From a virus, in the IMG/VR virus record IMGVR_UViG_3300014157_000001, positions 1 through 61,132 of that record: 61,132 bases of DNA; one strand, 5' to 3'. Below the pieces are notes generated by a model, which was not told the DNA's origin, ran no database searches, and was given only the letters and a program-made list of their open reading frames with translations. The position numbers were made by a program, and so were the translations under genes. Shown here piece by piece: positions 35,183 through 61,132 of the stretch (positions are counted from its first letter, which is position 1; each line of letters begins with the position of its first letter).

Positions 35183-38100
35183 CCGCGTGCTCCCACTCCC
35201 CCGCGCGCCAGGCGCCTGAGTTGGTAGGCGTTGTCGGCGTCGATACGGCGGGCGGTCGCGGCCGCGTTGTCGCCGGACGTGACGTGCCAGGTCTGGTTGC
35301 CGACGAGCGGGCCCTGCTCGCGGATGATGACGACCCGGCCCGAGTTGGCGTCGGTGAGCCCGAGGCCGAAGCGTCCGGCGACATCGCCCAACACGGCGGT
35401 CGCGCTGCCGCGTTTGTTGGCTCCGAGCGGGATGTAGGCCTCGCCCCCAGTGCTCGGTTCCGCAAAGGTCACCGCCCCGGCCTTGGTGGCGTAGATCCCG
35501 GAGCGGATGCCGCCGTTGGCGTAGGAGAGGTGCTGGTTGGCGCGGGCCAGGTCGGCAAGGAACTGCGTGGAGCGGTCCCCCAGGCTGGACTTGATCTGGG
35601 AGGACGCCTTGGTGGCGATGGTGATGATGTCGTCCTCGCCCAGCCCGGTCGACGCGGCGACCGTGTGGATGCCCGTCTGGGACGTTTTGATCGCCGCAAT
35701 GATCTGCACCAGGTCGGCGAGCTCGTCCGAGCTGAGCGTCTTCGCCTGGGTGGCCGCAGCCGTGTTCGCGGAGGAGGCGGCCGACTTCGACTTCACGGCC
35801 TCCGCGGCGAGCTGCTGCGCGGCCGCGTCGTTCTGCCCGGCGAGCTGGGAGGCGAGCGCCCCGTACCCCTGCCCCGCCAAGGTGATCAGGTTCTTCTGGA
35901 AGGTGGCGTCAGTCTTGTTCGCGGCGTTGAGCTGCGTCGTGTAGTCCTTCAGCGTCGCGTTCGCGACACCGGCGACCTTCTTCAGGTTGGCGACGATCTC
36001 CGTGAAGTGCGCGTTGGAGGCGGTCGCGAGCCGGTTGACGAGGTTGTAGCCGTCCTCGCCCATCGACTCCAGCAGGTCGGCGACGTCCTGCCCGCCACGG
36101 GATGCGATCTTCGACAGGCTGGAGCGCCACTTCTGTGTCGCCGCGACGCTTGAGCGCAACTGCTTCATGTAGTTGGTCAGGTCGAAATGCGCGGGCGCCT
36201 TCGCGTACTTCGACTGCCCCAGGGACGCGTTGATCTCCGCGATGTCGGCCTTCTCCTTGGCGACCTTCCTGCGCGCGGACGCCTTCGCCTTCGACGACTT
36301 GGCCTTACCCAGTTCCTTGACGGCGTCGTCGTACTGCTTCCACGCATCCCTGAGGGAGGAGACCAGCTTGTCGACGCGCTCCTTGGCGTCCCCGAGCCCG
36401 CCCAATGTCTGGCCGCTGGGCTTGTAGGTGAACCCGCCGGACGCGAACGACTGCACGCCCGGCTGCTGGTCGAGGACGGAGCCGTCGGCGTTCCAGGCGA
36501 TGCCCTTGCCGCCGAGACGGCGCACGGCCTCCTCGGCTACCTTCCGGGAGCGGCGCCGCTTGGCCGGGGACAGCGGAATGTAGGCCTCGCCACCGGTCTC
36601 CGGCTCCGCCCACACCCGCCACGTTCCGGCGGGAGCGAACTGGGCGACATGGTTCTCGGCGCCGCCTGCGAAGCGGCGGACTCCGCCGCGCTGGATGCCT
36701 CCGTTCGCGTAGTAGTCGACGGTGCCGCCGTCCGCCTTGCCGAGCCCACCCGCCCAGGGGCCGGGGCCCTTCTTGCCCATGTTCACGTACTGGGTGCGGA
36801 TGAAATGGTTGGTGTAGGTGCTGGCGGTCTTGCCGTCCAGGGCGGCGAGCGCGGCCCGAACCGAGGCGATCGCCCCGAGCGCCTGCCCGTTCGCGGTGTA
36901 GACCCGTGTACGCCCGTCGGGGAGCTGCTTGGTCTTGACGCCGACCGCGTTCAGTGCGGCGATGGCCGTCGCGTTCAGCGTCTTCACCGTGATCGACTTG
37001 GCGCCCGGTGTCGCCCTGATCTTCGCTTGGACGGAGGTCAGGCCGTCCATGGCGCCATTCACGTTCGCGCCCAGCTTGAGCGTCTTGTCCTTCAGCCCGT
37101 CCCGGACCATCTTCAGGTCGCCCAGGTTGGATTTTGCGGTGCCGGTGTCCGCGGTCACCTGGAAGCGGCCGTCGGGGAGTTCCTTGACCGTGTAGCCCAG
37201 CGACTCGATGACCGACACCGCGTCGCCGGTGAGCGCGTCGACCGTCACCGACTTCTTGTCGGGTGTCTTCTTGATCTGCTCGATGACGCTGTTGAGGCCC
37301 GAGATGGCGTCCTCGGTGCGCATCTCCAGCGAGAAGGCCTTCTTGTCGGGGATCTGCAGGATGCGGTCGGCGAGCACGTTGGCTTGCTCGGCGGTCAGGC
37401 CCATCTGTTGCGCGGACGACACCAGCTGGGCGCGGCCGCGTTCGTAGATGCCGTTGACGGTTTCCCAGCTCGAACCGGACTGGCGGGCGGAGGCGGCGGC
37501 CTCGTCGGTCTTGGCCGCCAGGTCGTTCAGTGCGGTCGCCGCGGCCTGGGCTTTCGCGCTGTTCAGGTTGAGTTCGCCGTGCGACATCGACAGCGCGCCC
37601 GCGTTCTCCTTCGCGGCCTTCGACGCCGCGTCGATCGCCGCCTCGAAGCCGATCATCCCGCCGAGGCCAGTGCGCTGCGCGTCGTTGAGGGCCTGGATGG
37701 ACTGCCGCAGTCCGTCCGCGCTCGCCTTCTGCGCGGCGAGCTTGTTGCTGGTGTCAATCGCCTGCTGCCCGAACACACCCATGCCGCGCGCGGCGATCTC
37801 CTGCTCGACCTTCAGGTCGGCGACCGCCTTCTTGTAGTCGTCGAAGGTCGCCGCGATCTCCTTGGGAGATGCCCCGCCCTTGCGCAGCGCGTCCTTGACG
37901 AGGTCGAATCCGGCCGCCGCGTCCTTCGCGTTGCCGGACGCCGCCATCTTGGCGAGCGCCTTGTCGACGGAGTCGAACTCGCTCCTGAGTGCCTTGAGGG
38001 AGTCCTTGCCCTTGACGATGTCTTCGACGTCACCAGCGAGCCAGTCCGCGATGTTGTCCAGGCCGGGGATCCGGAAGCCGAACGCGCCCTCTTGTGCCTT

Positions 38101-45225: not shown

Positions 45226-46284
45226 TCAGCTCGCCGGGAAGACGGTCGCGGAGATGTGGATGTCCGGCACGTACAGGACCGGCATCGCGACGGCGGCGCC
45301 CTTCGTCCACACCTGGACCGGGTCGTCCTGGAAGCCGTGCGTGACGATGATGCCGGGCGCCTCTTCCAGCTCGATGGCCGGGTTGTCGCCGGTCGTCAGG
45401 GCGATGGATTCGGCGGTGATGCCGTACTGGGTCTCCGCCCACGTGGTGCGGTTCGGGGGAACCATCACCCACTTGTTCTCCGGGAGGGGGCGGGCCATCG
45501 TGCCGTCGTCCTTGGGGATCTGCACGTCGTAGATCTCGATCGGCGGCAGGTTGTAGCGGGCGCGCACGGTGTCGACCTCGTTGGGTGCCAGCGTCGCGGT
45601 CGGCGTGTTCGACGGGTTCACCGACCCGTAGTAGGCCGACCGGTAGGCGTCGTTCCCGGCGAGCAGGGCGCGCGCCTTGTAGGAGGTGACGACCTTCTCC
45701 GGCATCGGAGCGCCGGACGCGCGCAGGACCTCGAGCCACGCCATCTCATCCGAGATCGGGTCGGAGGTCGGGTCGGTCCACGGGGTGCCCGCGGTCGGCA
45801 TGTTCGCCGTCGGGACCTGCGCGTCGTACTCGATGGTCAGCCCGTTCTCGCCGGCGAGGGTGAACTTGCCGTCGGTGACGAGGTCGCCGACCGCGAGTTC
45901 GAGGCGGGAGCGGATGGACAGGGTGTGGGCGGCGGTGTCGTCGTAGAGCATCTCCACGAGCTCGGAGGCGTCCGCGCCGCGCCGGGCGGCGAGGAGGATC
46001 GTCTCGAGTTCGGCGACGAGGAACTTCTGGCCGAGCGGGGGCAGCATGCCCTCGGTCTCGATCCGCTTGACCTCGCGGGAGGCGATCGGGGTCTGCGCGT
46101 CGTAGGCGCGGTACTTCGCCGCGTTGACCCGTCGGCTCGTGCGGCGGGTCTTGAACTTGACGCCGTTGATCTGGCGTTCCGGCATGACGTTCGCGGTCAG
46201 CGCGTAGTCGGCAGGGGTCTGCACGGCGCGCGCGAACGCGATGATGTCGGTGGGGGTGATGTCCCTGAGCAGGGCCTCAAGCAT
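45226..46284 (-). CDS. Major capsid protein, E family, 352 aa
   Basis: LPPLGQKFLVAELETILLAA, then SRLELAVGDLVTDGKFTLAG and GIIVTHGFQDDPVQVWTKGA are hallmark-like segments of the lambda gpE/Phage_cap_E family. The length is typical. It follows a decoration protein gene as in lambda (D then E). No protease-cleaved delta domain is apparent, since a separate scaffold gene is present. Confidence 0.88.
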   Translation of the reverse strand: MLEALLRDITPTDIIAFARAVQTPADYALTANVMPERQINGVKFKTRRTSRRVNAAKYRAYDAQTPIASREVKRIETEGMLPPLGQKFLVAELETILLAARRGADASELVEMLYDDTAAHTLSIRSRLELAVGDLVTDGKFTLAGENGLTIEYDAQVPTANMPTAGTPWTDPTSDPISDEMAWLEVLRASGAPMPEKVVTSYKARALLAGNDAYRSAYYGSVNPSNTPTATLAPNEVDTVRARYNLPPIEIYDVQIPKDDGTMARPLPENKWVMVPPNRTTWAETQYGITAESIALTTGDNPAIELEEAPGIIVTHGFQDDPVQVWTKGAAVAMPVLYVPDIHISATVFPAS

Positions 46285-47629: not shown

Positions 47630-47685
47630 TTCCAGGCCCCGCGCCTGAGATCAAGTGCAGCACAGAAATCACGGAGTGTTCCCCC
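47630..47685 (-). repeat. N31 intergenic element, copy 1
   Basis: On the minus strand GGGGGAAC, exactly 31 nt, then AGGCGCGGGGCCTGGAA, and GTCGATC beyond. It overlaps the portal stop and lies upstream of the scaffold gene. AGGC/GCCT can form a small hairpin, flanked by GATC on both sides. Confidence 0.7.
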
Positions 47686-49579
47686 CGCTCCCCTGCGCCG
47701 GGTCTTCGCCGTCCGGGTTCTGTGCCGGGTCGCTGCCGTTGTCGAGGGCGAGTTGCTGCCCCGCGGGCGGGAGAACCACGGGCGGGGTGTCCGGCTCGTC
47801 GGGGGCCTCACGACCGAGGAAGCCGGCGACCTCGTCGACGTTGCCGAGCGCGTCCGCAAGGTTCCGGGCGGCGGCGAAGGCGCGGGACTGGATGCGTTCG
47901 ATCTCTTCGGCAACGTCGTCGATGGGGAACCCGGCCTCCATCAGCATCTTCACCGCGGTCTCCAGGGAGAGGACGCCATCGCCTCCGTCGTAGCCGGTGG
48001 AGACCTGCTCCAGGACCGCGGCCTTGTCCGTCGGCGTGTACGGGCCGAAGACGAGCTGCGCGGGCAGGACCTGGATGCCCGTCCAGTCGGGATGCTGTCC
48101 GGCGAGGTGGAGGCGCTGCACCATCTTCAGCAGCAGGCTGTACTTGTGGGCGCGGGCCAGCCGCATCGAGGAGACGAGCGCGTCGAGGGGGCCGAGCGTG
48201 AGCTCCATCGCGTACCCGGACGGCACCTTGGAGGGGTCCAGCGTGCCGAGGGTGACGGCGGGCAGGCGGGCGTTGGTGGAGGCCCGGTCGGCGAGGTCGT
48301 GACGCTGCTCGCGCAGTTCCCGCAGCGCGGCCGACGTGTCGATGGTGGTCAGCTTGCCGTTCTCGGGGAGCTTCCATATCTGGCCGGGGCCGACGTCGTA
48401 CTGGGTGCGGGCGTCGGCCCCGGAGATCCCGACCATGGGCAGGCCGGTCGTCGCGGCGGCGCGCGCCGAGTCGGTGTCGGCGCCTTGGAGTTCGTCGAAG
48501 ACCTGCAGCACCTTCGCCAAGGACGATTGGCCCCAGTGTTCTTCGGCGCCGGGGACGGTGTTGGGTACGTGGACGACCGGGATGAAGTCGAGCATCAAAT
48601 CGAGGCGGTCGAGGACTTCGCCGTCGGAGCGGGTCGCGAACTGCGCCTTGGCGAGCGGCAGATCATCAACGTCGACGGGGCCCTTGAGGTCGCCCAACTC
48701 CCAGGTGGCGTCCGTCAGGTAGCAGGTGTACGCGGACGGCTGGTCGTTCCACGAATACACGCGGGTGACGGCCCCGGACTCCACGTTGACAGTGTCACCA
48801 GATCCGAGGGTGGGCTCGAGCTGCCCGTCGGGGCCCTCCACGGTGACGGGAGCCCGTACAGCCCTCCCCTGCTCGTCGACGCCGGCCGCGGTCGCCGGGC
48901 CGATCGGCGCGAGCTCGTAGGTGATGCGGCGCAGCCGTGCCTTCAGCTGCCGCTTGGGGTCCTCGGGGAGCTCCCACGCGAAGTGGACGCGGTCAGGGAA
49001 CTCGCCGTCGCCGTCCTCGGGCAGGACGGGGAAGTAGAAGCCGGGGTCGACGGCGCGGACGGTGGCGCGCTGCTTGGCGGGATCCCAGGCAAGCCGGTAC
49101 ACACCGTCCCCGAGGGAGACGGCCTTGCGCTCGGTCTGCTGCACCCTCATGGGCAGCAGTTCGGTCTCCGCCCACTCCCGCAACAGGTCCTGCACCCGTG
49201 CCGCGGCCACCGTGTCGGGACTGTTCCCCTGGCCGCCGCTGTCGTCGTCCGCACCCGTGACGGTGATGTGCTGCTCGCGGCCCAGGACGTGCGCCATCAC
49301 GGTGTCGATGAACATGGCGGGGTCGCCGAACTCACGCCGCTCGCGGGCCTGCGAGTCGAGGATCCCGGCGAGCTCGGCGGACTGGTTCTGGTCGTAGGCG
49401 GCGAGCAGCTTGTACGCGGCGAGGCGGCGTTCGTCGGCGGCGGGCACCCAGGAGGCGGCGGCCTCGGGGAACGCGCGCCGGTTCGGCATGCCGCGTGCCT
49501 CGTCGGCGAACACCGGCTTGTAGTTCAGCCAGCTCCAGCCGTCGATGACGACGCGGCGCATACCGGCGATGAGGCCCAC
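47669..49579 (-). CDS. Portal protein (SPP1 Gp6-like), 636 aa
   Basis: Typical N-terminal region (DERRLAAYKLLAAYDQNQSA), a mid-section with YPVLPED-like strands (VDPGFYFPVLPEDGDGEFPD) and a C-terminal part with GYAMELTLGPLDALVSSMRL and VFGPYTPTDKAAVLEQV. Portal proteins form the dodecameric DNA gate. Starts at GTG 49579 after GGAAGGA. The C-terminus is longer than average and acidic. Confidence 0.88.
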   Translation of the reverse strand: MGLIAGMRRVVIDGWSWLNYKPVFADEARGMPNRRAFPEAAASWVPAADERRLAAYKLLAAYDQNQSAELAGILDSQARERREFGDPAMFIDTVMAHVLGREQHITVTGADDDSGGQGNSPDTVAAARVQDLLREWAETELLPMRVQQTERKAVSLGDGVYRLAWDPAKQRATVRAVDPGFYFPVLPEDGDGEFPDRVHFAWELPEDPKRQLKARLRRITYELAPIGPATAAGVDEQGRAVRAPVTVEGPDGQLEPTLGSGDTVNVESGAVTRVYSWNDQPSAYTCYLTDATWELGDLKGPVDVDDLPLAKAQFATRSDGEVLDRLDLMLDFIPVVHVPNTVPGAEEHWGQSSLAKVLQVFDELQGADTDSARAAATTGLPMVGISGADARTQYDVGPGQIWKLPENGKLTTIDTSAALRELREQRHDLADRASTNARLPAVTLGTLDPSKVPSGYAMELTLGPLDALVSSMRLARAHKYSLLLKMVQRLHLAGQHPDWTGIQVLPAQLVFGPYTPTDKAAVLEQVSTGYDGGDGVLSLETAVKMLMEAGFPIDDVAEEIERIQSRAFAAARNLADALGNVDEVAGFLGREAPDEPDTPPVVLPPAGQQLALDNGSDPAQNPDGEDPAQGSGGNTP

Positions 49580-49666: not shown

Positions 49667-51235
49667 TCAGCGGCGGCCGCGGAGCCGGTTGTCGGCATAC
49701 GACGTGACGCCGGTGCCCATGGCGGACGGGTCGGCGAGCTCAGTGAGCGCGTGCACAGCGGCGTCCATTCTGTCGGGGCTGTCCATGCCGGGCAGCCACG
49801 TCACCATCTGGGTTTCCAGCTGCGGGAACTCTGCTGTGTGGTGGACGAGACCCACTTCGTAAAGTTGGGCGATCGGCTCCGCGCGGAGCCTCTTGCCCTT
49901 CTTCGCGGTGACCTCCACGATCCGCGGCATCACCGCGCCCTTCGTCTCCCCGTTGCGCTCCAGTTCGGCCCACGCCTGCACGACTGTCTGTTTGGCCATG
50001 TCGCCGCCGTAGTTGCTCTCCACGACGATCGCGTCCGCATCCAGTTGCAGCGCGAGGAGGCAGGTCTCGCGGCCGCGACCCTCCGCGGAATGCTTGGCGG
50101 TGCGGTCGGCGAGGACGTAGTACTGCCCGTCGGACGAGCGGCCTGCGGCGACGATGCCGGATTCGTCGTGGCCGGGGGTGTCGCCGCCGGCGGGGTCGAG
50201 GGCGACGACAACGCGGGTGAGGTCGACGGCGCGGAACGCGATCGGGTCGATGCGGTTCTTGGTGATCCAGTCCCATTCCCAGACGCCGCCTGCGAGCGGT
50301 CGGGGCTGCTGCTGGTAGAGGGCCCACCAGACGCGTTCACCGACGGCGCGGTGGGTGCGGGCGAGTTCGTCTGCGTCGTACTGCTCGGGCCACAGGGCTT
50401 CGCCGACCTGCCGGCCGAGGGGGTCGTCGTCGGACAGGGCGAGGGCGGGGAGATCGATGAGTGTCCAGTTCTCCGGTTCGGTCGCAAGGATGCGGCCGGA
50501 AAGATCATCTTCGTGCCACCTCGTGTTGATCAAGATAATCGAGGCGCCCGGAGCACGGCGGGTGTAGAAGACGGACTGGTACCAGTTCCACACGCGTTCG
50601 CGCTGCGTCGGGGAGTTGGCGTCGTCGGAGCCCTTGAACGGGTCGTCGATAATGCCGAGCGAAAATCCCTTTCCATTCAAAGATCCACCGACGCCGGCGG
50701 TGACCATGCCGCCGCGTACGGACGAGCCGCGGGGCTGCTCGAGGTCGAAGCGGTTCGCGGCGCGGGACCCGTCGTCGAGACGGACCCCGAGAGTCGGGGC
50801 GTACTCCCGAAGTTGGTCACGGACCCAGCGGCCGTGGTCGTCGGCGAGTTCAGCGCCGTACGAGGCGAGCATGACGCGCGCCGTCGGATGACGGCGCAAA
50901 TACCACAAAGGCCCCCATCTAGAGGCTCTTTGGGACTTTCCGTGACGAGGTGGGCAAGTAATCATCACCTGCATGCGCTCACCTGCGGCGATACGCATGA
51001 ACACGTCGTCGATCATGTCGAGGTGGCGGGCCTGCTTCTCCCGACCCTCGGTCAGCACGGCGGCGAGCGCCCCCGGGGAGCGGTCCATCGCCATCTGCCG
51101 TTCCACCCAGGCGAGACGCAGCCGGAGTTCAGGGCTGGCCTGGGCGGCGATGTGGCGCCGCTCGCTGGCGGGGAGGGTGCGGTAGTGGGCGAGCAGCGCG
51201 TCCTCGACAGGAGCGTCACTGATCGCTGTGGCCAC
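49667..51235 (-). CDS. terL: Large terminase subunit, 522 aa
   Basis: MITCPPRHGKSQRAS (residues 91-105) is the Walker A of terminases and FSLGIIDDPFKG (191-202) the Walker B. The nuclease half has VVALDPAGGDTPGHDESGIV and AIVVESNYGGDMAKQ, giving the acidic residues of the RNase H-like site. It packages and cuts the genome. The GTG at 51235 overlaps the small terminase end by 20 nt. Confidence 0.93.
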   Translation of the reverse strand: MATAISDAPVEDALLAHYRTLPASERRHIAAQASPELRLRLAWVERQMAMDRSPGALAAVLTEGREKQARHLDMIDDVFMRIAAGERMQVMITCPPRHGKSQRASRWGPLWYLRRHPTARVMLASYGAELADDHGRWVRDQLREYAPTLGVRLDDGSRAANRFDLEQPRGSSVRGGMVTAGVGGSLNGKGFSLGIIDDPFKGSDDANSPTQRERVWNWYQSVFYTRRAPGASIILINTRWHEDDLSGRILATEPENWTLIDLPALALSDDDPLGRQVGEALWPEQYDADELARTHRAVGERVWWALYQQQPRPLAGGVWEWDWITKNRIDPIAFRAVDLTRVVVALDPAGGDTPGHDESGIVAAGRSSDGQYYVLADRTAKHSAEGRGRETCLLALQLDADAIVVESNYGGDMAKQTVVQAWAELERNGETKGAVMPRIVEVTAKKGKRLRAEPIAQLYEVGLVHHTAEFPQLETQMVTWLPGMDSPDRMDAAVHALTELADPSAMGTGVTSYADNRLRGRR

Positions 51236-51761
51236 CGGCGTCCTCTCCCCCGGTCTCTGCGGGGAGCGTGCCGTCCGCCCCGGCCGGCCCCGCGAATCCG
51301 ATGAGGGCGTTCAGCTCGTTGAGGGTGCCTGTGCCGAGGGGGACGGCGCCGCCGTCGGGTCCGGACACTTCGGTCTTCACGGGGCTGTCGAGGCCGTTGA
51401 GTTTGGCGCGGCGGTCCATCAACCGGAGGACGGTGTCGACGGCCCGCATGTCGAGCTCCTCGCCGATGACCTGCCCGTCCTTGGAGAACACGGGGCTGGG
51501 GGTGGTGGCGCGGGGCCATGCGGCTTCGAGGAGCGCGTCCAGGCGCTCGTTTTCCTGCTGACGGTAGACGGAGACTTCGGCTGCCTCTTCGTCGCGGTGG
51601 AGTTCGAGGGCGCGGGCGACGTCTTTGCGGGCGGCGTTGGTGCTGGCGTAGCCGAGGTTGAGGATGCGTTCGTCGTCGTAGCGGATGCCTTGGCGGCGTA
51701 GGCGGAGGAGTTCGGTGCGGCGGACTCGGGTTTGGTCCATTTTGAGGCGGTTCGCTGGCAT
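51216..51761 (-). CDS. Small terminase-like protein, 181 aa
   Basis: An N-terminal HTH-like part (RRTELLRLRRQGIRYDDERI, then YASTNAARKDVARALEL) and a helical centre. The position directly upstream of the large terminase, with overlap, supports the call. It would recognise the packaging site. First gene of the virion operon. Confidence 0.78.
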   Translation of the reverse strand: MPANRLKMDQTRVRRTELLRLRRQGIRYDDERILNLGYASTNAARKDVARALELHRDEEAAEVSVYRQQENERLDALLEAAWPRATTPSPVFSKDGQVIGEELDMRAVDTVLRLMDRRAKLNGLDSPVKTEVSGPDGGAVPLGTGTLNELNALIGFAGPAGADGTLPAETGGEDAGGHSDQ

Positions 51762-51790
51762 GGCGGTGGGGCTCCCGCTGTGTCGTCGTG

Positions 51791-51846
51791 TTCCAGGCCC
51801 CGCGCCTATCTCTGATGATCGCCGATTGTCGTGCGGGTGTTCCCCC
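51791..51846 (-). repeat. N31 intergenic element, copy 3
   Basis: GGGGGAAC, 31 nt, AGGCGCGGGGCCTGGAA between the terminators at 51.9 kb and the small terminase start. It is the most upstream copy and therefore the first element of the virion operon. Confidence 0.7.
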
Positions 51847-51890
51847 TGCCCGCGCCGGGTTGGGCATCCCGACGGTGCGGTGACGGCATG

Positions 51891-51931
51891 AAGTAGCCCC
51901 ACCGTCGGGGGGGGTGACGGTGGGGCTACTT
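51891..51931. terminator. Bidirectional terminator between transfer and virion operons
   Basis: AAGTAGCCCCACCGTC pairs perfectly with GACGGTGGGGCTACTT (16 bp) around 9 nt. Another repeat, GCTCGGGC/GCCCGAGC (51934-51973), follows. Confidence 0.85.
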
Positions 51932-52010
51932 GGGCTCGGGCGTGGCCCTGGGGGTGGATGCCGGGGCCCGAGCGGTTCTGGGTGGGTAACGAGTGGGGGT
52001 GGGGTTGTGG

Positions 52011-52062
52011 CACGGCCCGCGACGATGGGGGCGCGGGGGTTGCTCCCTCGTCGCGGGCTGTG
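52011..52062 (-). terminator. Terminator-like hairpin after the nuclease module
   Basis: CACGGCCCGCGACGA pairs with TCGTCGCGGGCTGTG, 15 bp with one wobble. It is the first of three stacked hairpins that end the transfer operon. The remaining DNA between 51762 and 52115 holds only these and the N31 element. Confidence 0.72.
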
Positions 52063-52115
52063 CCTGTTCAGGATGGGGCACGATCGCGTGTTTGTCCGAG
52101 GCGCTATCCCCCGGG

Positions 52116-52589
52116 CTACTGCCAGGGGGCGCGGCCGCCGTTCATCCACTGCGCGGTGTCGTTGCCGTCGAAGAGGACGACGCCGAGCTGCCCGGCCTGC
52201 TCGACGGCTTCCTTCGTGTAGCCGCTGCTGGTGACGATGGCGGCGCCCGTGCAGCCGGCCAGGTGGGCGGCGCCGACGGTCGCGCGGACGGTTTCGCCGT
52301 CGACGTTGTTCTTGGCCTTGTACCGCTTGAACTGCAGGAGCCAGCGCTGGCCGTTGACGAGGCGGACCCGGCCGTCGCATCCGCGGTCGCCGCTCTTGCC
52401 GGTGGGTACGGCTTCGACGACGCCGGGGGTCTTGCGGGCGGCCTGGATGCCGGCTTCCTCGAAGCGGGTCCAGTGCAGGTTCTGGAGCTTGGCGGCGGTG
52501 GCGTGTCGGGGTATCGCGGCCTGTTTGGGCAGGTGGGCGGCGGCCTTGTCGAGGCGTCGGAAGAGGGTGTTGAGGCGCTGCGGGTGGGT
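52116..52589 (-). pseudogene. Mrr-like restriction endonuclease domain separated by one TAG from its N-terminal part
   Basis: The frame continues directly after the TAG at 52592-52590 for 157 residues with no start codon of its own. It encodes GDRGCDGRVRLVNGQRWLLQ followed by FKRYKAKNNV, a PD-(D/E)xK-like D...QxK core, and AIVTSSGYTKEAVEQAG with FDGNDTAQWMNG, as in Mrr_cat domains. Codon use is normal, so decay is either very recent or the TAG is read through. A membrane-anchored nuclease would result. Labelled pseudogene for the stop codon only. Confidence 0.72.
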
Positions 52590-52784
52590 CTAGTTGAGGA
52601 TGGCGGCCAGGATCGGCAGCAGGATCAGTAAGGCGAGTACGGCGATGGTCTGGCCGGGCCAGGTGACGAAGGCGAAGTAGCCGATGAGGAGGCTGATGCC
52701 GAGTCCGCTCCAGGTGATGCGGGGCAGGCGGCTGCGCCGGGCACGGACGGGGGCGGGGCGGCGTACGGGCTGCTGGATGGCCAT
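52590..52784 (-). CDS. Small membrane protein, N-terminal half of a split nuclease, 64 aa
   Basis: Basic N-terminus (RRPAPVRARRSRLPRI) and two membrane helices (GLGISLLIGYFAFVTW; TIAVLALLILLPILAAIL) end in ILN and a TAG. The following codons are in the same frame and encode the Mrr-like domain. Membrane helices joined to an Mrr-like nuclease are a plausible single-protein design, so this is probably the front of one protein. Confidence 0.75.
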   Translation of the reverse strand: MAIQQPVRRPAPVRARRSRLPRITWSGLGISLLIGYFAFVTWPGQTIAVLALLILLPILAAILN

Positions 52785-52793
52785 GCGGGGTCC

Positions 52794-53348
52794 TTAGAGG
52801 TTGGTGGAGTGGTCGTGGTCGTTGCGGACCCACACGCCGCTGCTCTTGTGCTCGTGGGTGGAGTGGTCCTGGTGGACGACGGCACCGTCGAAGTGCTGGT
52901 GGATCGTCGGCGGGGCGGCTTCGACGACATCTCTCGCGGAGCCGAGGAGGGACTTGACGGCGAGTGCGATGCCGATGACGCCGCCGGCAATGGCGCCGAT
53001 GACTTTGAAGTTGGCGAGGCTGGTCCCCCACATGGCGAGGGCGAAGCCGCCGCCGATGAGGGGGGCGGCGATGCCGACGGCGAGGATGAGGCCGGTGGCG
53101 TCGGCGGCTTTCTGGCTCATGGGGGCGCGGCCCGGCTGCATGACGGGCGGGGCGGTTCCGATCTGCGGCGTCTCGGTGGGGTCTTTGTAGAAGGTGGGGA
53201 TGCGCGGGGTCTGTTCTGCGGCGATGCGCTGGGCGGCGTCCTGCATGGCGGTTTCGATGGAGTGCAAGAGGTCGTTGGCGGTGGTGTCGACGTGGGGCTG
53301 CCCGGCCTTGGGGGCGGTGGGCTGTGTCGGGTCGGGCAGGCGGTTCAC
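52794..53348 (-). CDS. Membrane protein with His-rich C-terminus, 184 aa
   Basis: A hydrophilic N-terminal half with a helix (ANDLLHSIETAMQDAAQRIA) precedes two membrane segments (ATGLILAVGIAAPLIGGGFA; VIGAIAGGVIGIALAVKSL). The C-terminus is rich in His and Asp (HQHFDGAVVHQDHSTHEHKS; NDHDHSTN) and might bind metal. It lies between the ATPase and the split nuclease; perhaps an Spd-type spread protein. Confidence 0.68.
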   Translation of the reverse strand: MNRLPDPTQPTAPKAGQPHVDTTANDLLHSIETAMQDAAQRIAAEQTPRIPTFYKDPTETPQIGTAPPVMQPGRAPMSQKAADATGLILAVGIAAPLIGGGFALAMWGTSLANFKVIGAIAGGVIGIALAVKSLLGSARDVVEAAPPTIHQHFDGAVVHQDHSTHEHKSSGVWVRNDHDHSTNL

Positions 53349-53374
53349 GGGCGGGTGTCTCCTTCAGGGGTGGG

Positions 53375-55699
53375 CTAGTTGGCGATTCGGTAGGTGCCGC
53401 GGCGGCCTCCGGGGGCGACGGCGCCCTCGTCGTGGAGTTCGCCCATGGCGTTGTTGACGCTGCCTGCGGCGACGTCGTGGAGGCGGTGGCGGACGTCCTT
53501 GAGGGCCCAGATCTGGCCGTCGGCGAGGAGGTCGAGGATGCGGTCCTTGATGGTGCCCGTGGACGGCTCGTCGTCGTCTTCGTCGTCTTCATCGAGGTCG
53601 ATCCCGAGGCGGGCGAGTTCGTCCTTGGCGACGGTCTGCGCGGCGTCGGCCGCGTTGTCGATGCCCTCCGCGGTGTCTCCGCCGGCGAGGAGTTCCTCGG
53701 CGAAGGCGAGCCACTTCGCGTAGGACATCTGGAAGACGGCGTCTTCCTCGGGGGTCAGACGCGGGATGGGCCGGGACTCCATGAGCGCGATGAGACCGGG
53801 GTAGGTCTTGTTCTCCTTGCGGGCGAACCAGGTCCGGCTAAGGAACACGCTGCCGCCCTGAATGATGTTGGCCATGCCCGCAGTGATCGGGCCGTTCTTG
53901 GCTTCCTTGCCTTCGAACGCAGCGTCAAGAGCGTTACCGCTCCCGGTGTTGAAGTACCGCGGGATCGGCTCGGGGTAGACGCCGGGCGGGAGGACTCCAT
54001 CGGTGGCCATGTGCTTGGTCGTGGAGGAGTTGGTGCGGCCGAGCCACACGGTGCCGTTCTTGCCGTTGGCGCGGATGCGGTCCTTGTCGCCGAGGTCGGC
54101 GAGGTGGATGGACTGGGCGGCGAAGCGGATGCCCTTGCCGAGCTTGCGGCCGGTGGACTGGTTGTCGCCAACGAGGCCGGTGACCCACTTCCTAAAGGGG
54201 CGGGGCACGGTGGCGTCGGCGGACAGGATGCGGTTGAGCTCGTCGAGGGTGTCGTTGGCGATCCGCCACGGCTTGCCGGGTTCGAAGGATCCCCAGCCGT
54301 TGGCGGCGCTGATCTTCTCTCGGTACTTGCCGAGGTCGTTGGAGGCGGCGAGCGTCGCAGCGGTCGCGGCGATGCCCTTTCCGAAGTGGTAGATACGGCC
54401 ATCGGCCTCAGGCAGGCTCATGCCGTCCTGCGCGTCCGCGGCGATGGACACGATGCCGTTGATGCGTTCGGCGGCAAGCAGGGTGAGGAGGCTGACGGAC
54501 TTGCCGCCGCCGGGTGCGGCGACGTACAGGTCCGTGACGGCGCCCATGTCAGGGTCGTACAGGGGGACGCGGGCCTGTCGGCCGTCGGGGCGCAGACCGA
54601 TGGCGATGGTGCCCGCCTCGTCCATCGTGAGGTCTTCGATGGTGGCCTCGCGGAGCGCCACCAGCGGGTGCGTCTTGTAGATGGAGATGAGGCCGTCGCC
54701 GAGGCCGTCGGTTTCGACCATGACGAGGGAGGCGTCGGCCATCTCGAGGGCGCGGGCGATGAGTTTCTGGTTGAGCTGGATGAGTTGCCCCTCGGGGGCG
54801 CTGGTGCGGTAGGCGACGCGGTTCTCGTCGGCGCGGTAGCCGCGCAGGATCATTCCTTCGGTGGGGCCGCCCTTGCGGGCGAGCTTCTCGTTCCACCAGC
54901 GTTCGGCGGGGTGGACGGCCTGCTGCTCCAGGCGCGGGAGGCCCGGCTTGGCGGTGAGGAGTTTGCGGCCGGTGCCGGAGCCCTGGATGTTCTGGAGTTC
55001 GACGGTGCCCGGGGGCAGGTCGAAGATGGCGGCGAGCGCGTCGGCGTTCAGGGTGGGGGCTTCGTCGCCGGCTTCGGCGATGACGATGCCCCAAAAGTCG
55101 GGCAGGAGTTCGCCGGTGGCGGGGTGGGCGTACTGGGTGACGCCGGTCAGCAGACTGTTGCCGGTCTTCTTGGAGATGGCCCACTGGTGGCTGCGGTAGT
55201 CGGCGTAGGTCTGCGGGACCGGCGTGGGCGCCGCCTCGAGCGCCGGGGCGGCGGTGGGGAGCTGTTCGGGGATGAGGTCGGCGGCGTGGGTGATCGGGGT
55301 TGTGTAGGCCATGACGCCGCCCCAGGCGGGGCCGAGGAGGTACTCCCACCAGGCGCTGCCGGGGGTGAGGAGGGCTCCCAGGTAGGCGCCCGATGCGGTG
55401 AGGGAAGGAGTAATGATCTCTGCGGTCTTCAGGAGGCGCCAGCCGATCGGCTCGGTCTCCCATGCCCCCCACAGCAGCCAGGAGGCGAGTCCACCCAGCG
55501 CTGCCGCGCCAACGTGGGCGGGCCAATAGTCGGTCTGCGGGCCGATGGTCACGCCGAGCGCCATCACGCCGTAGGTGAGGCGTTCCAGGCGCTTGCGGCG
55601 GCGCAGGGTGCGGGCGGACACGATCCGCGGCGTACGGGCGTCCGGCTGGGGCAGGGGGGCGATGAGTGGCGTCTGGGTGGGCTTGGTCAGGGAGGCCAC
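53375..55699 (-). CDS. FtsK/TraB-like DNA-translocating ATPase, 774 aa
   Basis: Two membrane segments near residues 40-80 and two at 95-135 are followed by a motor domain with VAAPGGGKSVSLLTLL (Walker A at 397-401). Around 700-710 is an acidic stretch, then a C-terminal winged helix (KDRILDLLADGQIWALKDVR, then SVNNAMGELHDEGAV) in the position where Streptomyces TraB and FtsK bind their short recognition repeats. TraB moves double-stranded plasmid DNA between hyphae as a single motor. On this genome it would add conjugation to phage spread. No clt/TRS repeat array was found by eye. Confidence 0.83.
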   Translation of the reverse strand: MASLTKPTQTPLIAPLPQPDARTPRIVSARTLRRRKRLERLTYGVMALGVTIGPQTDYWPAHVGAAALGGLASWLLWGAWETEPIGWRLLKTAEIITPSLTASGAYLGALLTPGSAWWEYLLGPAWGGVMAYTTPITHAADLIPEQLPTAAPALEAAPTPVPQTYADYRSHQWAISKKTGNSLLTGVTQYAHPATGELLPDFWGIVIAEAGDEAPTLNADALAAIFDLPPGTVELQNIQGSGTGRKLLTAKPGLPRLEQQAVHPAERWWNEKLARKGGPTEGMILRGYRADENRVAYRTSAPEGQLIQLNQKLIARALEMADASLVMVETDGLGDGLISIYKTHPLVALREATIEDLTMDEAGTIAIGLRPDGRQARVPLYDPDMGAVTDLYVAAPGGGKSVSLLTLLAAERINGIVSIAADAQDGMSLPEADGRIYHFGKGIAATAATLAASNDLGKYREKISAANGWGSFEPGKPWRIANDTLDELNRILSADATVPRPFRKWVTGLVGDNQSTGRKLGKGIRFAAQSIHLADLGDKDRIRANGKNGTVWLGRTNSSTTKHMATDGVLPPGVYPEPIPRYFNTGSGNALDAAFEGKEAKNGPITAGMANIIQGGSVFLSRTWFARKENKTYPGLIALMESRPIPRLTPEEDAVFQMSYAKWLAFAEELLAGGDTAEGIDNAADAAQTVAKDELARLGIDLDEDDEDDDEPSTGTIKDRILDLLADGQIWALKDVRHRLHDVAAGSVNNAMGELHDEGAVAPGGRRGTYRIAN

Positions 55700-55729
55700 G
55701 GGCCGTGTCCTTTCCGTGAGTCGGGTGGG

Positions 55730-56203
55730 TTAGGGAACCTTGTTGAAGCCGGGCTTGGGCTGCTCGTACGGGGACGCCTGGACGGCCTCGTAGATGCCGC
55801 CGTACTCGCTGTCGTGGGCGTCCTTGACGAACTGGGCGTTCATTTCCATCTGGTCGGCGGCGTCGGCGAGTTCACCGGAGGCCTGCGCGACGCGTTCGAA
55901 CGCGGCGGCGACCTCGAGGGCCTGGACCTGAAAGACGGGGTCGACGCCGGCCTGGCCAAGCTGTTCGGCGAGGTGCCGGGCCCGGGTCGCGTCCTGGTGC
56001 ATGCGGGCCTTGAGAAGGTGCAGTTGCTCCTTCAGCAGGGCGGCGGCGGTCACGAGTGCCGTAATGCGGGCGGCGAGGGTGATGAAGTTGAGGACGCCGT
56101 CGACGGCGTCGCGCCAGCCCATCCTGGCGGGCTGATGCTGCTGTTCCATATCGGATCCGCTGTGCACGGAGGTCGGCTCGATCGCCTTGCTGTCGTCGCT
56201 CAT
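55730..56203 (-). CDS. Helical protein of the transfer operon, 157 aa
   Basis: A hydrophobic stretch (VLNFITLAARITALVTAAALL) followed by long helices (EQLHLLKARMHQDATRARHL; ALEVAAAFERVAQASGELAD) suggests a membrane-associated coiled-coil protein. It is located between the ATPase and the large basic protein. Possible accessory subunit of the transfer machine. Confidence 0.72.
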   Translation of the reverse strand: MSDDSKAIEPTSVHSGSDMEQQHQPARMGWRDAVDGVLNFITLAARITALVTAAALLKEQLHLLKARMHQDATRARHLAEQLGQAGVDPVFQVQALEVAAAFERVAQASGELADAADQMEMNAQFVKDAHDSEYGGIYEAVQASPYEQPKPGFNKVP

Positions 56204-56214
56204 AGCGGGCCGCC

Positions 56215-58590
56215 TCAGGTCTTGTTGTGGATCGGTGCGGACGGGGTGGTCAGGCCTGCGTCGGCGGTGGCGTCGGTGATGGGCCGGTAGGCGTCGTTGA
56301 GGTCGTTGTCGGCCTGTTCCGCCATCTCCGCGGCTTGCAGCGAGGAGGTCTCCATCTCCTCGGCCATGCGGGCGAGGAGGTCCATGGATTCGGCGAGGCG
56401 GGCCATGGCGAGGGAGAACAGGGCGCCGATGAGGTTGTGGCGGTGGGCGAGGTCGATGGCGAAGGTGATGAGGGTGTCGCGGAGTTTGATCGCGCGTTCG
56501 GCGAGTTTCGCGCTCTGCCGGTGCGTCTTGAAGGCGTCGTCCTTGAACTCGCCGTACTGGTCGAGGGCGTCGTCGAGGGTGATTTCGGTGGCGTGCATCG
56601 GGTCCATGTGGCCTGCGGTGTCGGCGATGGCGGAGCCTTGCCGGTGGGCCGCGTGGTGGATCTCCTGCATGCGCTTTTCTGCGGGGACGGGGGCGGGTGC
56701 GGGTGGCATGGCGTGGGGCTCCTTCGGGCGGGTGGTGCCGGGGCGTTTCGTGTGCGGTTCGGGGGCGGGCGGGAGTGCGGACAGGTCGCGGGTGAGGGCG
56801 CCGGCCGGACCGTCGGTGGTGTGCGGGGTGGGCTGGTCGTCGCGTTCGACGGTCCGGGTGGTGGCGTTGGTTTTGCTGGCGGAGGCGGCGTTGCCGTAGG
56901 GGCTGCGCCGCGGCCCTGCGGTGCTTCCGGGTGTGCCGGTGCCGCCCGCGGCCCCTGTGCTGCCGGGGTTGCTGGTGGGCGGGGTGGTGCCGGTGGCGGC
57001 GTCGCCCTTGGCGGCGTCGTAGCCGTCCCGGGCGTCGCGGGCGCGGTCGCGGGCCTTGCGCCGCTTGTCCTTGCGGCCGGGCCCGGTCGTGTCCTTCGGC
57101 GGCTTGGGCGTCTTGGCCTTCTTCTCCCGCTTCTTGTCGTTCTTCCACAGCCGCCATCCGGCGCTGTCGCCCTTGGCGTGCTTCTTCTGCTCCTTCTTGA
57201 GGCGGCCCTCGGCCTTCTTCAGCCGCTTCGCCGCTGTCCGCTCGGCCCGCTGGGACTGCTTGGCGTCGAACTTGCCCTGGCGGACCTGCTCGCGGCGGGC
57301 TTCCTTCGCGTCGGCGCGGGCGTCACGAATGCGGTTACGGCGGTCCTGGCGGGCCTGCTTGGGCGCGGACTTGAGGTCGCGGGCCGCCTTACGGTCCTTG
57401 GCCTTCTCGCCGAGCCGGGCGGCCTGCCGGTCGGCTCGGCGCTGGAGGCGGCCGTCCTGACGTGCGGCGGCCCGCTCCTTGCGGGTACGTCCGCCGGTGC
57501 CTGTGTGGCCGGAGCCGGTCGTGCCGGACTTGCCGAGGCTGTGGCCGGCACCCTGGGAGGTGCGGTGCGGGGACTTCTTGCCGCCCTTGTCCTTCGCGCC
57601 GCCCGTGCTGCTCGAGCCGCCGCCGTTGGTCTTGCTGTTCTTCTTGGACGTGCCGCCGCCCAGGCCGAGCCCGCTGCCGGTCCCCCGGTTCTTCTTCGAC
57701 GACGTGCTGCCGGAGCCGTTGCCGGTGGAGGTCTTCTTCGACCCACCACCGAGCCCGGACGATCCGGAGCCGGTGCGGTTCTTCTTCGCTCCACCGCCGA
57801 GGCTGCCGCCCGAGCCGGTGCCGCGGGACGACTTCGAACCGCCGCCCGAACCCAGGCCACCGGAGCCCGACTTACTGCCGCCCCGACCGGCGCCACCGCC
57901 GGGTCCGGACTTGCTGCCACCCCGGCCCGCCCCGGATCCCAGGCCGCCGCTCCGGCTGCCCGTCGACGACGAGCCACCGCGGCCGCCGCCGAGCGTCTTG
58001 CGCCCGAACTCGGTACCCGGCGGCACCTTGTTCTTCGCGTTCTTCTCCGCGGCCTTCTCACGCGCCTTCGTCACGTCGGTGCGGCCCTTCGCGACCGCCT
58101 CGTCGACGTCCCATCCGTGCTGCGCCATCGCCAGCTGGTGCTTGAGCTGGGCCTCGCGCATCGGCGCGCTCTCGGCGCGCTTCTCCATGGCGCGCTGGCG
58201 GCGGTCCTCGAGGAGGATCGCCGACCCACGCAGCGCGGCGACGGCAACGGCGAGGACGGCGGCCATGGACAGCGCGCCGAGCCGCGGCCCGACCGGCTGC
58301 TCCCCCGTATCGCCGTTGCGGAAGGTGGCGGGCAGGCCCGGCTCGGGGCTCGTGGTGGCGGGCACCGGGGACGCGAGCAGTGCCGGGGAGGGCAGCGCGC
58401 CCACCAGGTCCAGAGGGCTGCGGCGGGCCCGCTCCCCCGTTCCGGTTCCGGGCTCTCCGGACGGGAGTTCGGGGATGGCCGGCTCGAGGTCGCCAGCATC
58501 CTGCGAGGGCGCAACCGGAGTGATGTTGAAGCCGATCCGCGGGAAGTTGTAAACCTGGGCGTCGCCATCCGGGGTCTGGTCGTTGCTCAT
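56215..58590 (-). CDS. Large basic low-complexity transfer-region protein, 791 aa
   Basis: N-terminal part with a membrane helix (LSMAAVLAVAVAALRGSAIL) and a helical region. Residues about 200-370 are Gly/Ser/Lys repeats (GRGGSKSG, GSGGLGSG, KKNRTGSG-type units). Residues 370-530 are extremely basic (Arg/Lys/Ala helices such as RKERAAARQDGRLQRRADRQ). The C-terminal ~200 residues are a helical domain (KLAERAIKLRDTLITFAIDL). Could coat DNA or link the TraB-like motor to the wall. No known family recognised. Confidence 0.72.
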   Translation of the reverse strand: MSNDQTPDGDAQVYNFPRIGFNITPVAPSQDAGDLEPAIPELPSGEPGTGTGERARRSPLDLVGALPSPALLASPVPATTSPEPGLPATFRNGDTGEQPVGPRLGALSMAAVLAVAVAALRGSAILLEDRRQRAMEKRAESAPMREAQLKHQLAMAQHGWDVDEAVAKGRTDVTKAREKAAEKNAKNKVPPGTEFGRKTLGGGRGGSSSTGSRSGGLGSGAGRGGSKSGPGGGAGRGGSKSGSGGLGSGGGSKSSRGTGSGGSLGGGAKKNRTGSGSSGLGGGSKKTSTGNGSGSTSSKKNRGTGSGLGLGGGTSKKNSKTNGGGSSSTGGAKDKGGKKSPHRTSQGAGHSLGKSGTTGSGHTGTGGRTRKERAAARQDGRLQRRADRQAARLGEKAKDRKAARDLKSAPKQARQDRRNRIRDARADAKEARREQVRQGKFDAKQSQRAERTAAKRLKKAEGRLKKEQKKHAKGDSAGWRLWKNDKKREKKAKTPKPPKDTTGPGRKDKRRKARDRARDARDGYDAAKGDAATGTTPPTSNPGSTGAAGGTGTPGSTAGPRRSPYGNAASASKTNATTRTVERDDQPTPHTTDGPAGALTRDLSALPPAPEPHTKRPGTTRPKEPHAMPPAPAPVPAEKRMQEIHHAAHRQGSAIADTAGHMDPMHATEITLDDALDQYGEFKDDAFKTHRQSAKLAERAIKLRDTLITFAIDLAHRHNLIGALFSLAMARLAESMDLLARMAEEMETSSLQAAEMAEQADNDLNDAYRPITDATADAGLTTPSAPIHNKT

Positions 58591-58640
58591 GAAACCCCCT
58601 CTCAGGGTTGACAGGCTGTAGTCGATTCGAGGACTATCGC

Positions 58641-58709
58641 GCGCGCACGTACGCGTACGACGTGCGCGCAGGTTGGGGTCTTCATCACCACGTGTTCGTG
58701 GAGGTGATG
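58641..58709. promoter_or_regulatory. Two inverted repeats in the 130-bp gap inside the transfer operon
   Basis: GCGCGCACGT-n9-ACGTGCGCGC (58641-58669) and CATCACC-n13-GGTGATG (58683-58709). They lie just upstream of the large basic protein gene and could be operator, internal promoter region or a transfer locus. Confidence 0.55.
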
Positions 58710-58722
58710 ATGATGACGACGG

Positions 58723-58935
58723 TCACGGCGTGTGAGCCTTGAAGAAGTCATGGAGGTGGGACGCCAGCTTGTTCCAGGTGTCCGCGTCACCAAGCTTCTG
58801 GTTCTGGCGGGCCACCATGCGGCAGGCGTCGAACCAGACGGCGGCGACCGCGTCCGGGCCCAAGAGGGCGGCGGCCTTCTGCCGCTGGTTCCAGTACTCC
58901 GCTTGGTTCTTCTGACGGTTCTGGGCGGTGGTCAT
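58723..58935 (-). CDS. Small helical protein, 70 aa
   Basis: NRQKNQAEYWNQRQKAAALL and VWFDACRMVARQNQKLGDAD are helical and polar. The ATG overlaps the stop of the upstream gene. Part of the transfer operon; no known family. Confidence 0.7.
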   Translation of the reverse strand: MTTAQNRQKNQAEYWNQRQKAAALLGPDAVAAVWFDACRMVARQNQKLGDADTWNKLASHLHDFFKAHTP

Positions 58936-59480
58936 CCGGTCTCCTCGAAGACGGTGCCGAAGTCGGGCAGCGGTGTGGTGTTGGCCTGGCTGGTGGCGTA
59001 GGCCTGCGGGTGCGGGCTGTTGTAGACGACTGGCGGTGCGGCGGCCGGCGGCTGCTGGCCTGCGATGCGCGGGTCAGGCGCGAGGTGCTGCGCCGACTCG
59101 GTCAGCGACCGCTGGGTGAGCGCCTGCGCCTTCTGCCTGGTCAGCGCCCTGGCCTCGCGGCGCTTCTGCTTCTGGTCGAGGGCCTTGGCGCGGCGTTCGG
59201 GCAGTTCGAGGACCCGACGGTTGTAGGTGGCGTCGATGGCTTCGACCTCGGCGGCGGCCTTCTCCAGGAGCTTGGCGACCCGGTTGAACCGGCCGCGGAC
59301 CTGGGCGGCGCGGCGCTTCGCTGACCAGGGCTTGTCGCCGTCGATCTCGGTCTGGGCGATACGGGCGTAGATGATGCGGCCCATCTGCCGGAGCTCGGTG
59401 GCGTCGTTGACGAACGTGTCGCGCTGTTCGTCCTTGAAGCCGCTCATGCCCTTCTTGGTCATCAGCTCGGTCATGTCCAT
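58932..59480 (-). CDS. Coiled-coil protein of the transfer operon, 182 aa
   Basis: An N-terminal helix set (FKDEQRDTFVNDATELRQMG), a basic coiled coil (VAKLLEKAAAEVEAIDATYN; ARALTRQKAQALTQRSL) and a Pro/Ala-rich C-terminus. It lies just after the DUF2637-type gene. Function inferred only from position. Confidence 0.72.
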   Translation of the reverse strand: MDMTELMTKKGMSGFKDEQRDTFVNDATELRQMGRIIYARIAQTEIDGDKPWSAKRRAAQVRGRFNRVAKLLEKAAAEVEAIDATYNRRVLELPERRAKALDQKQKRREARALTRQKAQALTQRSLTESAQHLAPDPRIAGQQPPAAAPPVVYNSPHPQAYATSQANTTPLPDFGTVFEETG

Positions 59481-59494
59481 CGGTCACGTTCTCC

Positions 59495-60967
59495 TTACGC
59501 GGACTTCGTGTTGCGGGCTTCGGCCTGGGCCGCGGTGAAGAGGTCCTGGGCGGTCTTGAGGCGGTCGTAGGCGGTGGTCTGCTTCAGGTCGAAGTCCCGC
59601 ATCACGTCCTCGAGCGGGTACGACTTCGGGTCGTTCGCTTCGACGAGGCGGGCGAGGACCTTCTCGACTTCGGCCTGCTTCTTGGCGCGGGGGCCGGTGA
59701 TGGGTGAAACCGAAGTCGAAGTGCGGGCCGAACCGGTGGCCGGCTTCGGGGCTCGGTCCGAAGTGGTCGAAGCGGTGCGGGCGATCCGCTCGGCACGCTC
59801 TTGGGCCTCCTGCTCCTTTCGGGCGCGGGCCTCGTCGGCGGCCTGCTGGCGGGCGGCTGCCTGCGCCTTGGCCTGGCGCTGCTGCTGCTCCCATCGGGCT
59901 TCGGCTTCGGCCTGCTGCTGCTCGCGGGCGATGGCGGCGAGCTTCGCTTCGGTTTCGGCGGCGAGCAGGCGGGCGGCTTCGGCGTCCTGGCGGCGCTTCG
60001 CTTCGACTTCGAGGCGGGCGACTTCGGCAGCGACTTCGGCGCGGTGCTTCGCTTCGGCTTCGACTGCTTCGGTTCCGGCGATTTCGGCGCGCTTCGCCGC
60101 TTCGGCTTCGAGCCTGCGGAGTTCGGCCTGGTGCTTCGCTTCGGCTTCGGCTTCGGCCTTGGTACGGGCTTCGGCTTCGCGTTCTGCTTCGGCCTCGGCG
60201 AGCTTCTGCGCTTCGCGCTCGGGGAGGTCGATGGCGTCCTCGATGCTCATTCCGTCCCGGGCGAGGGACAGGACGAGCATCTGCTCGGCGCTGGCCTTGC
60301 GGCGCCATCCGCGGCGTCCGTACTCCTTGCGGAGTTGGGCGACGTAGATGCGGCGGCCGCGCTCGAGGGTGAGGACCTGGTCCCAGGTGCGGATGCCCCA
60401 CAGGCGTTGGCGGCGCCACAGGATGAACGTGCCGATGGGGTTGAGGAGCCAGCGGGAGGGGGGCGGGCCTTCGAGGTGCTTGTCTGCGGTGATGTCGGCG
60501 ATGCGGCCGATGGCGTGGCGGGCGGCTTCGACGGCGATGACGAACAGGACGGGGATGACGCCGTGCATGGAGACGCCGACGGGGTCGGGCCAGGAGACGA
60601 CGGCGTTGAAGGCGATGGTGGCGGCGGTAAGCGTCCAGGCGGTGTAGCGCAGGAGGGGGAAGCCGATGCGCCGCCAGGTGAGGAGGAGGTCGAGGGCGAG
60701 GAAGGCGACGATGCCGGCGTCGACGGCGATGGGGAAGGCGTGGGCGAAGTCGCCGAAGCCCTTGGTGAGGGCGAGGTCGGTGACGGCGCTGTAGGAGCCG
60801 ATGAAGCCGAGGGCGGCGATGATGAGGACGGCGCCGACGACGATCCCGGTGAGGAGTTTCTGGGTGCGGGTGGGGGGCTGTTGGGCGTTCCCCGGCGCGG
60901 TGGGCGCGAGGGTGCCGTCCGTGTGGGGGCGGTGCGGCTCGTTGCCGGGGGCCGGGGTGGTGGTCAC
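59495..60967 (-). CDS. DUF2637-type membrane protein with Ala/Glu coiled coil, 490 aa
   Basis: Four membrane segments (LLTGIVVGAVLIIAALGFIG; AVDAGIVAFLALDLLLTW and two more) form the N-terminal ~170 residues, as in DUF2637 proteins of Streptomyces plasmids. A middle part has WGIRTWDQVLTLERGRRIYV. Then ~160 residues of Ala/Glu/Arg coiled coil follow and a C-terminal winged-helix-like piece (VEKVLARLVEANDPKSYPLE, then KQTTAYDRLKTAQ). Such proteins are linked to plasmid spread or maintenance. GTG at 60967 chosen. Confidence 0.8.
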   Translation of the reverse strand: MTTTPAPGNEPHRPHTDGTLAPTAPGNAQQPPTRTQKLLTGIVVGAVLIIAALGFIGSYSAVTDLALTKGFGDFAHAFPIAVDAGIVAFLALDLLLTWRRIGFPLLRYTAWTLTAATIAFNAVVSWPDPVGVSMHGVIPVLFVIAVEAARHAIGRIADITADKHLEGPPPSRWLLNPIGTFILWRRQRLWGIRTWDQVLTLERGRRIYVAQLRKEYGRRGWRRKASAEQMLVLSLARDGMSIEDAIDLPEREAQKLAEAEAEREAEARTKAEAEAEAKHQAELRRLEAEAAKRAEIAGTEAVEAEAKHRAEVAAEVARLEVEAKRRQDAEAARLLAAETEAKLAAIAREQQQAEAEARWEQQQRQAKAQAAARQQAADEARARKEQEAQERAERIARTASTTSDRAPKPATGSARTSTSVSPITGPRAKKQAEVEKVLARLVEANDPKSYPLEDVMRDFDLKQTTAYDRLKTAQDLFTAAQAEARNTKSA

Positions 60968-60990
60968 GGGGGTCGGGTCCTTTCGCGTCG

Positions 60991-61132
60991 TCAGGCGCTG
61001 TGGTGGATGGCGGTGTTGGTGGTCGGGCGGGGTAGGGCCATGCAGTCGCGGGCGTGTGCGGAGGCGTCGGCGAGGGCCTTGTTTCCGAGGCCGCTGTGGT
61101 TCTTCCATCCGCAGGTCCGGCATTCGGCGTGG
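60991..61132 (-). CDS. Zinc-finger transfer-region protein, C-terminal part (starts at 89)
   Basis: The frame enters from the right edge and ends at TGA 60991. It reads HAECRTCGWKNHSGLG, then ARDCMALPRP. Together with 89-1 it forms an uninterrupted 76-aa gene. The four Cys/His positions suggest one zinc site. Confidence 0.72.
   Translation of the reverse strand, partial: HAECRTCGWKNHSGLGNKALADASAHARDCMALPRPTTNTAIHHSA

Follow-up and report, generated by a model that had tools for sequence, protein, structure and literature searches.

Can a single Streptomyces element travel between hosts both inside virions and by conjugation between mycelia? The usual account of phage-plasmids has them move as viruses from one cell to another and as plasmids within a lineage, and has conjugation functions gained in P1-like elements that lost phage genes (PMC10879196). 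The DNA analysed here (the window; 61,132 nucleotides, virus record IMGVR_UViG_3300014157_000001 of IMG/VR) carries a putative DNA-pumping ATPase at 53375–55699 and, on the same strand, a siphovirus gene set. The original prediction, made from the letters alone, saw in this a classical single-motor TraB setting and a dual route of spread that is rarely described. We find that the window is a fragment of a Streptomyces phage-plasmid of the pZL12 family, and probably represents a plasmid-prophage whose SCP2-type operon moves the plasmid form between mycelia. Within this family the motor is exchanged as a cassette and goes with plasmid life, since 33 of 34 plasmids keep one, the types swap, and a sister clade of prophages has none at that place.

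A transfer operon of the SCP2 type

The right-hand end of the window holds six genes on one strand, all with intact reading frames:

53375–55699, minus strand: TraA-type FtsK/HerA DNA translocase (SCP2 TraA family), 774 amino acids, assigned by sequence, motifs and predicted fold
55730–56203, minus strand: small homologue of SCP2 TraB, 157 amino acids, 48% identity, hhalign probability 99.8
56215–58590, minus strand: glycine-rich protein, SCP2.23c homologue, 55% identity over the C-terminal 125 amino acids, hhalign 100, one hydrophobic helix at 109–127
58723–58935, minus strand: 70-amino-acid protein, SCP2.24c homologue, E 4e-10, hhalign 97.3
58932–59480, minus strand: 182-amino-acid protein, SCP2.25c homologue, hhalign 95.3, blastp not significant
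59495–60967 or 61123 (start uncertain), minus strand: DUF2637 membrane protein, SCP2.27c homologue, Pfam DUF2637 E 8e-38

The motor frame has a high coding score and, as had been proposed, contains Walker A, which reads APGGGKS from residue 395 and whose GxGK is invariant in the alignment, together with a Walker B-like DE at residues 486–487. It is 61–66% identical to homologues on phage-plasmids and 44.5% identical, over 92% of the query, to the major transfer protein of SCP2 (traX plus traA), which breaks down into 50.7% over 471 amino acids of traA and 33% over 240 of traX. Searched against plasmids it matched 174 records, nearly all from Streptomyces, and a tblastn search of 50,697 phage records gave no match. 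By sequence it matched nothing in the PDB and not the NCBIfam TraB model NF041214 (curated cut-off 800 bits), and it stayed below the cut-off of Pfam FtsK_SpoIIIE. An AlphaFold2 model (mean pLDDT, the per-residue confidence score, of 65, highest in the motor and C-terminal domains) is closest, among solved structures in Foldseek, to TcpA, the coupling protein for conjugation of pCW3, and to the motor domain of FtsK in DNA-bound and free form (E 4e-9 to 1e-8), so the proposed structure search led to translocases and not to unrelated ATPases; the anticipated C-terminal winged helix appears in the model as a winged-helix-like domain. As for the membrane helices expected in the ATPase, no segment exceeds a hydropathy of 1.5 averaged over 19 residues, although the model places four helices at 29–136 with low confidence. 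Because of the SCP2 match and the structural matches to TcpA and FtsK, we assign the motor to the FtsK/HerA type by fold and to the SCP2 TraA family by sequence; the FtsK half of the predicted FtsK/TraB-like motor stands, but the protein is an SCP2 TraA and not a classical TraB.

The whole operon follows the same model, its six proteins being colinear with SCP2.27c, 25c, 24c, 23c, traB and traX/traA. Blastp is significant for five of the six (the 182-amino-acid protein is the exception), and profile comparison of the five smaller pairs gives hhalign probabilities of 95–100% throughout. The DUF2637-type neighbour, correctly predicted, shares 37.5% identity over 192 amino acids with SCP2.27c and has three hydrophobic helices. 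Since six homologues of SCP2 transfer genes stand here in their SCP2 order, alongside a full siphovirus set, transfer by both virions and conjugation would be the best reading of the sequence, and a sound one with published precedent in the same family (pZL12). The prophage would persist as a plasmid, induction presumably would yield siphovirus particles, and the SCP2-type operon (53375–61123) would let the plasmid form pass between mycelia, with TraA forming a ring at the membrane along with the DUF2637 protein and further membrane proteins, and pumping double-stranded plasmid DNA into the recipient hypha.

Several points weigh against this reading. The record is incomplete and shows no GntR-type regulator, origin or clt site; the regulator, a trait of SCP2-type operons, would lie beyond the window's right end and is present in a relative (L002). 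The setting is not the classical TraB/clt one that had been predicted: the motor fails NF041214 and the Pfam FtsK_SpoIIIE cut-off, and the 8-bp repeat of pSVH1, GACCCGGA, is at chance level (6 found, 6.7 expected), a count to be read with the plasmid specificity of clt/TRS motifs and the incompleteness of the element in mind. Most repeats in 51700–61132 fall within the coding sequences for the DUF2637 and glycine-rich proteins. Crude ratios of nonsynonymous to synonymous substitution (dN/dS) of 0.42–0.73 do not prove strong purifying selection; in DNA of 70% GC they are uninformative, because GC-rich third positions constrain synonymous change. Finally, the argument for intercellular transfer of this element is one from homology. 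That last point, the membrane proteins of the operon, and the fact that spread within the recipient mycelium is a known part of Streptomyces conjugation (PMC12857230; PMC9513070) would suit a motor that works inside the mycelium only, spreading or segregating the prophage plasmid across septa with no movement between mycelia. We regard this as rather unlikely, for the nearest relatives with experimental data, TraA of SCP2 and the motor of pZL12 (the latter according to papers citing the original work), are needed for conjugal transfer, and the same motor types occur on plasmids of other sizes in which the terminase was not matched.

The window as a pZL12-family phage-plasmid

The window is a linear record of about 70% GC with no end repeats and no tRNA genes. 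Its relatives are nearly all 84–94 kb, which puts the missing part at about one third of the element; the window would be a 61 kb fragment of the circular 84–94 kb replicon typical of the pZL12 type. Most genes between 61 kb and about 23 kb lie on the minus strand. Pfam and PHROGs profiles confirm the predicted terminase, capsid and tail on the same genome: the virion and lysis set comprises terminase, portal, scaffold, major capsid, neck, major tail/tail tube, tape measure, distal tail/tail tip, minor tail and fibre genes and an endolysin. The left 20 kb encodes ParA, a cytosine methylase, an ERF recombinase, a tyrosine integrase and a replication-initiation-like gene, ParA (by Pfam and PHROGs) supplying the plasmid maintenance trait of pZL12-type phage-plasmids. 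The chief features are:

3365–4510, plus strand: ParA-type partition ATPase, AAA_31 E 5e-24, phrog_164
4507–5415: putative ParB, assigned by position only as the gene after ParA
6672–8165: replication-initiation-like gene, weak match
18889–19980, minus strand: tyrosine recombinase/integrase, Phage_integrase E 1e-20
26654–27916, minus strand: endolysin (CHAP, peptidoglycan binding), Pfam and PHROGs profiles
35179–39816, minus strand: tape measure protein, phrog_10780
45226–46284, minus strand: major capsid protein, Phage_cap_E E 3e-26, phrog_29
47669–49579, minus strand: portal protein, phrog_64
49667–51235, minus strand: terminase large subunit, phrog_38 E 1e-97
51216–51761, minus strand: putative terminase small subunit from its place next to the large terminase gene, just ahead of it; phrog_645 matches the longer frame 51216–52013

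The large terminase shares 84% identity with its counterpart in phage ZL12, with which the window groups in the terminase tree (support 100). Another pZL12-type trait is present as well, a translocase operon that precedes the terminase on its strand. According to papers that cite it, pZL12 (NC_013420; Zhong et al. 2010) is a plasmid-phage whose replication, transfer and lytic cycle have been characterised. Its motor gene, gp71, lies upstream of its own terminase, and other phages match gp71 only weakly.

The window comes from a virus record of unknown provenance, which would leave room for a chimeric assembly that joins plasmid and phage. Complete independent records show the same junction, complete plasmids refute a chimera for the family, and another contig (L083) shows 100% identity with the window across 5,086 bases around the junction; we give this explanation practically no weight. 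The architecture recurs in a circular plasmid of 93.7 kb and in two other elements of 87–89 kb, and the motor type is common to the phage-plasmids NZ_CP107756 and NZ_CP032230 and IMG/VR record 2765235998.

Two further observations concern these relatives. Polyketide synthase genes recur as cargo (pZL12 gp100, type III; NZ_CP032230 47045–48091; NZ_CP108485 51683–52732), and several of their large terminase genes (H57, H58, H60, H70) are split by HNH or LAGLIDADG inserts, possibly inteins or introns.

Motor types at a fixed slot

Relatives of the terminase were gathered from genomes and viral contigs, and the frames upstream were typed with profile searches on stop-to-stop frames, automatic gene calls having given wrong strands at a few loci (L008, L096). 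Of the 34 plasmid records whose terminase reaches 54% identity or more, 33 have, upstream of the terminase and on its strand, a translocase of the FtsK type, at a distance of 1.4 to about 12 kb. The sole exception, in which a motor was not detected, is Kitasatospora NZ_CP108485; CP042280 (L033), a candidate second exception, was rejected on finding an FtsK-domain gene, above the Pfam cut-off, about 5 kb upstream of its terminase. The 33 motors comprise 19 of a type that we call t3, 6 of type t4, 3 of the pZL12 type (z), 2 of the SCP2 type, 2 classical TraB (pCQ3 and pCQ4; NF041214, 848 bits for pCQ4) and 1 FtsK-domain protein, so that at least six sequence types occur at the slot. Type t3 is a distant homologue of the SCP2 type (hhalign 99.5) and t4 a homologue of z (98.3); between the SCP2/t3 and z/t4 groups hhalign found no significant match. 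The t3 translocases have Gly for the usual Ser/Thr in Walker A (GxTGSGKG) in 12 of 12 aligned (L144:6567–8891 and 11 others).

These types are mixed over the phylogeny. On the terminase tree (80 rows) the window, ZL12 (z) and L064 (t3) stand together with full support, three neighbours with three motor types, and the minimum number of type changes, leaving out motor-free rows, is 19 both there and on a portal-plus-capsid tree (53 rows). Trees built from different virion genes are not congruent in every detail, from which we infer mosaicism of the backbone too; the mixing of types remains. The exchange is seen directly in close pairs: pCQ4 and L101 are 93–96% identical over most of the virion region, and pCQ3 and L121 about 94%, and in both pairs similarity is nil upstream of a boundary near the 3′ end of the motor genes, 68 bases (L101) and 182 bases (L121) beyond the motor gene. 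The membrane protein at the DUF2637 position swaps independently of the motor, a window-like version standing beside a pZL12-type motor (L120:879–2603) and a pZL12-like one beside an SCP2-type motor (L010:4752–6362).

A further 30 terminase relatives, which together form one clade, have none of four typed motors within about 10 kb upstream (the clade was searched to 10 kb upstream of the terminase, a few members further, and counts as a single lineage). At least 16 of them lie on contigs of 150 kb or more, one a complete chromosome, and presence or absence of the motor changes only 2 times on the portal–capsid tree. Because this clade consists of prophages, many of them chromosomal, and presence changes so rarely, the motor tracks plasmid life and not virion production. 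The same evidence bears on a role for the motor in the virus itself, in packaging, ejection or lytic replication, which might be suggested by its position in the window and related elements, 2–4 kb ahead of the terminase and on one strand with it. Yet these siphovirus prophages have homologous terminase, portal and capsid genes and no motor there, differing types interchange beside nearly identical virion genes, and homologues sit on SCP2, where no virion genes are annotated, all of which makes a viral role improbable. FtsK-like translocases also occur in other Streptomyces phages of 81–83 kb (Galactica, Hiyaa, Spocter and Keanu).

Between the operon and the terminase lie two genes:

52794–53348, minus strand: 184-amino-acid protein with two hydrophobic helices, phrog_19266 E 5e-38
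52116–52784, minus strand: Mrr-type endonuclease gene with an N-terminal membrane part, Mrr_cat E 1.6e-18

The first had been taken for an Spd-like protein, an identification that we drop: it has no SCP2 counterpart (hhalign probability 2.4) and is found family-wide in these phage-plasmids beside SCP2-, pZL12- and t4-type motors, its pZL12 counterpart being gp70. The second is broken by an in-frame TAG at 52590–52592, a stop shared by contig L083, with relatives uninterrupted. This stop codon next to the operon, and dN/dS values that are not low, could be taken to mean that the operon is a decaying relic of a plasmid–phage fusion; its six intact frames, the invariant catalytic columns and the retention of the motor across the related plasmids make that very improbable, slightly more so than a viral role. 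Two strong inverted repeats, at 51891–51931 and 52009–52064 between the transfer and terminase genes, are candidate terminators or a candidate packaging site.

On balance, we lean towards a wider reading of the family, in which pZL12-like phage-plasmids are a lineage that spreads horizontally in two ways, by virions and by conjugation between mycelia, and whose motor is practically obligatory yet interchangeable, with at least six types, some without detectable sequence kinship, replacing one another as cassettes at a single fixed site ahead of the terminase. Switching of motor type could itself be selected, for example through entry exclusion or recipient compatibility. Nearly every member of a Streptomyces lineage here retains a motor for conjugation next to its virion genes, and motors that replace one another at a fixed slot form a natural swap series in which to see what a motor determines. 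Family members whose typing by MOB-suite, via PLSDB, was examined are called non-mobilizable, and surveys of that kind may therefore miss this kind of transfer.

Comparison with known systems

The claim that a dual route is rarely described holds only in part, as pZL12 was published in 2010 and a whole lineage of such elements exists. Two things seem to be new, the joining of an SCP2 operon to a pZL12 virion and a motor slot that is nearly always filled, but with interchangeable motors; no description of either was met in the literature searched, which did not include the key papers of 2010 and 2021. The SCP2 transfer region (S. coelicolor A3(2), AL645771) resembles the window in six homologous proteins in the same order, from the DUF2637 protein to TraA, but SCP2 is a 31 kb plasmid with no virion genes annotated in the part examined, and the annotation splits its TraA into two overlapping frames, traX and traA, whereas the homologue in the window is one. 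SCP2 may have a frameshift or sequence error there (L003:12064–14375), the phage-plasmid homologues examined being single frames. Classical TraB of the pSVH1/pIJ101 type (NF041214) shares the idea of an FtsK-like motor and occurs in the same slot of pCQ4, whereas the window protein does not match that model and the window shows no clt/TRS enrichment. pZL12 has the same layout, its transfer operon preceding the terminase genes, and it also has partition genes and the closely similar terminase; it differs in gp71, which is of another sequence type (hhalign 10.8 against the window motor, not significant), and in gp72 and gp73, which match none of the window motor's neighbours. Phage-plasmids NZ_CP107756 of S. 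pseudovenezuelae and NZ_CP032230 of S. seoulensis carry an SCP2-type motor (61–66% identical) in the same place; their terminases are 64–67% identical to that of the window, and they are annotated merely as plasmids, with the motor as a hypothetical protein.

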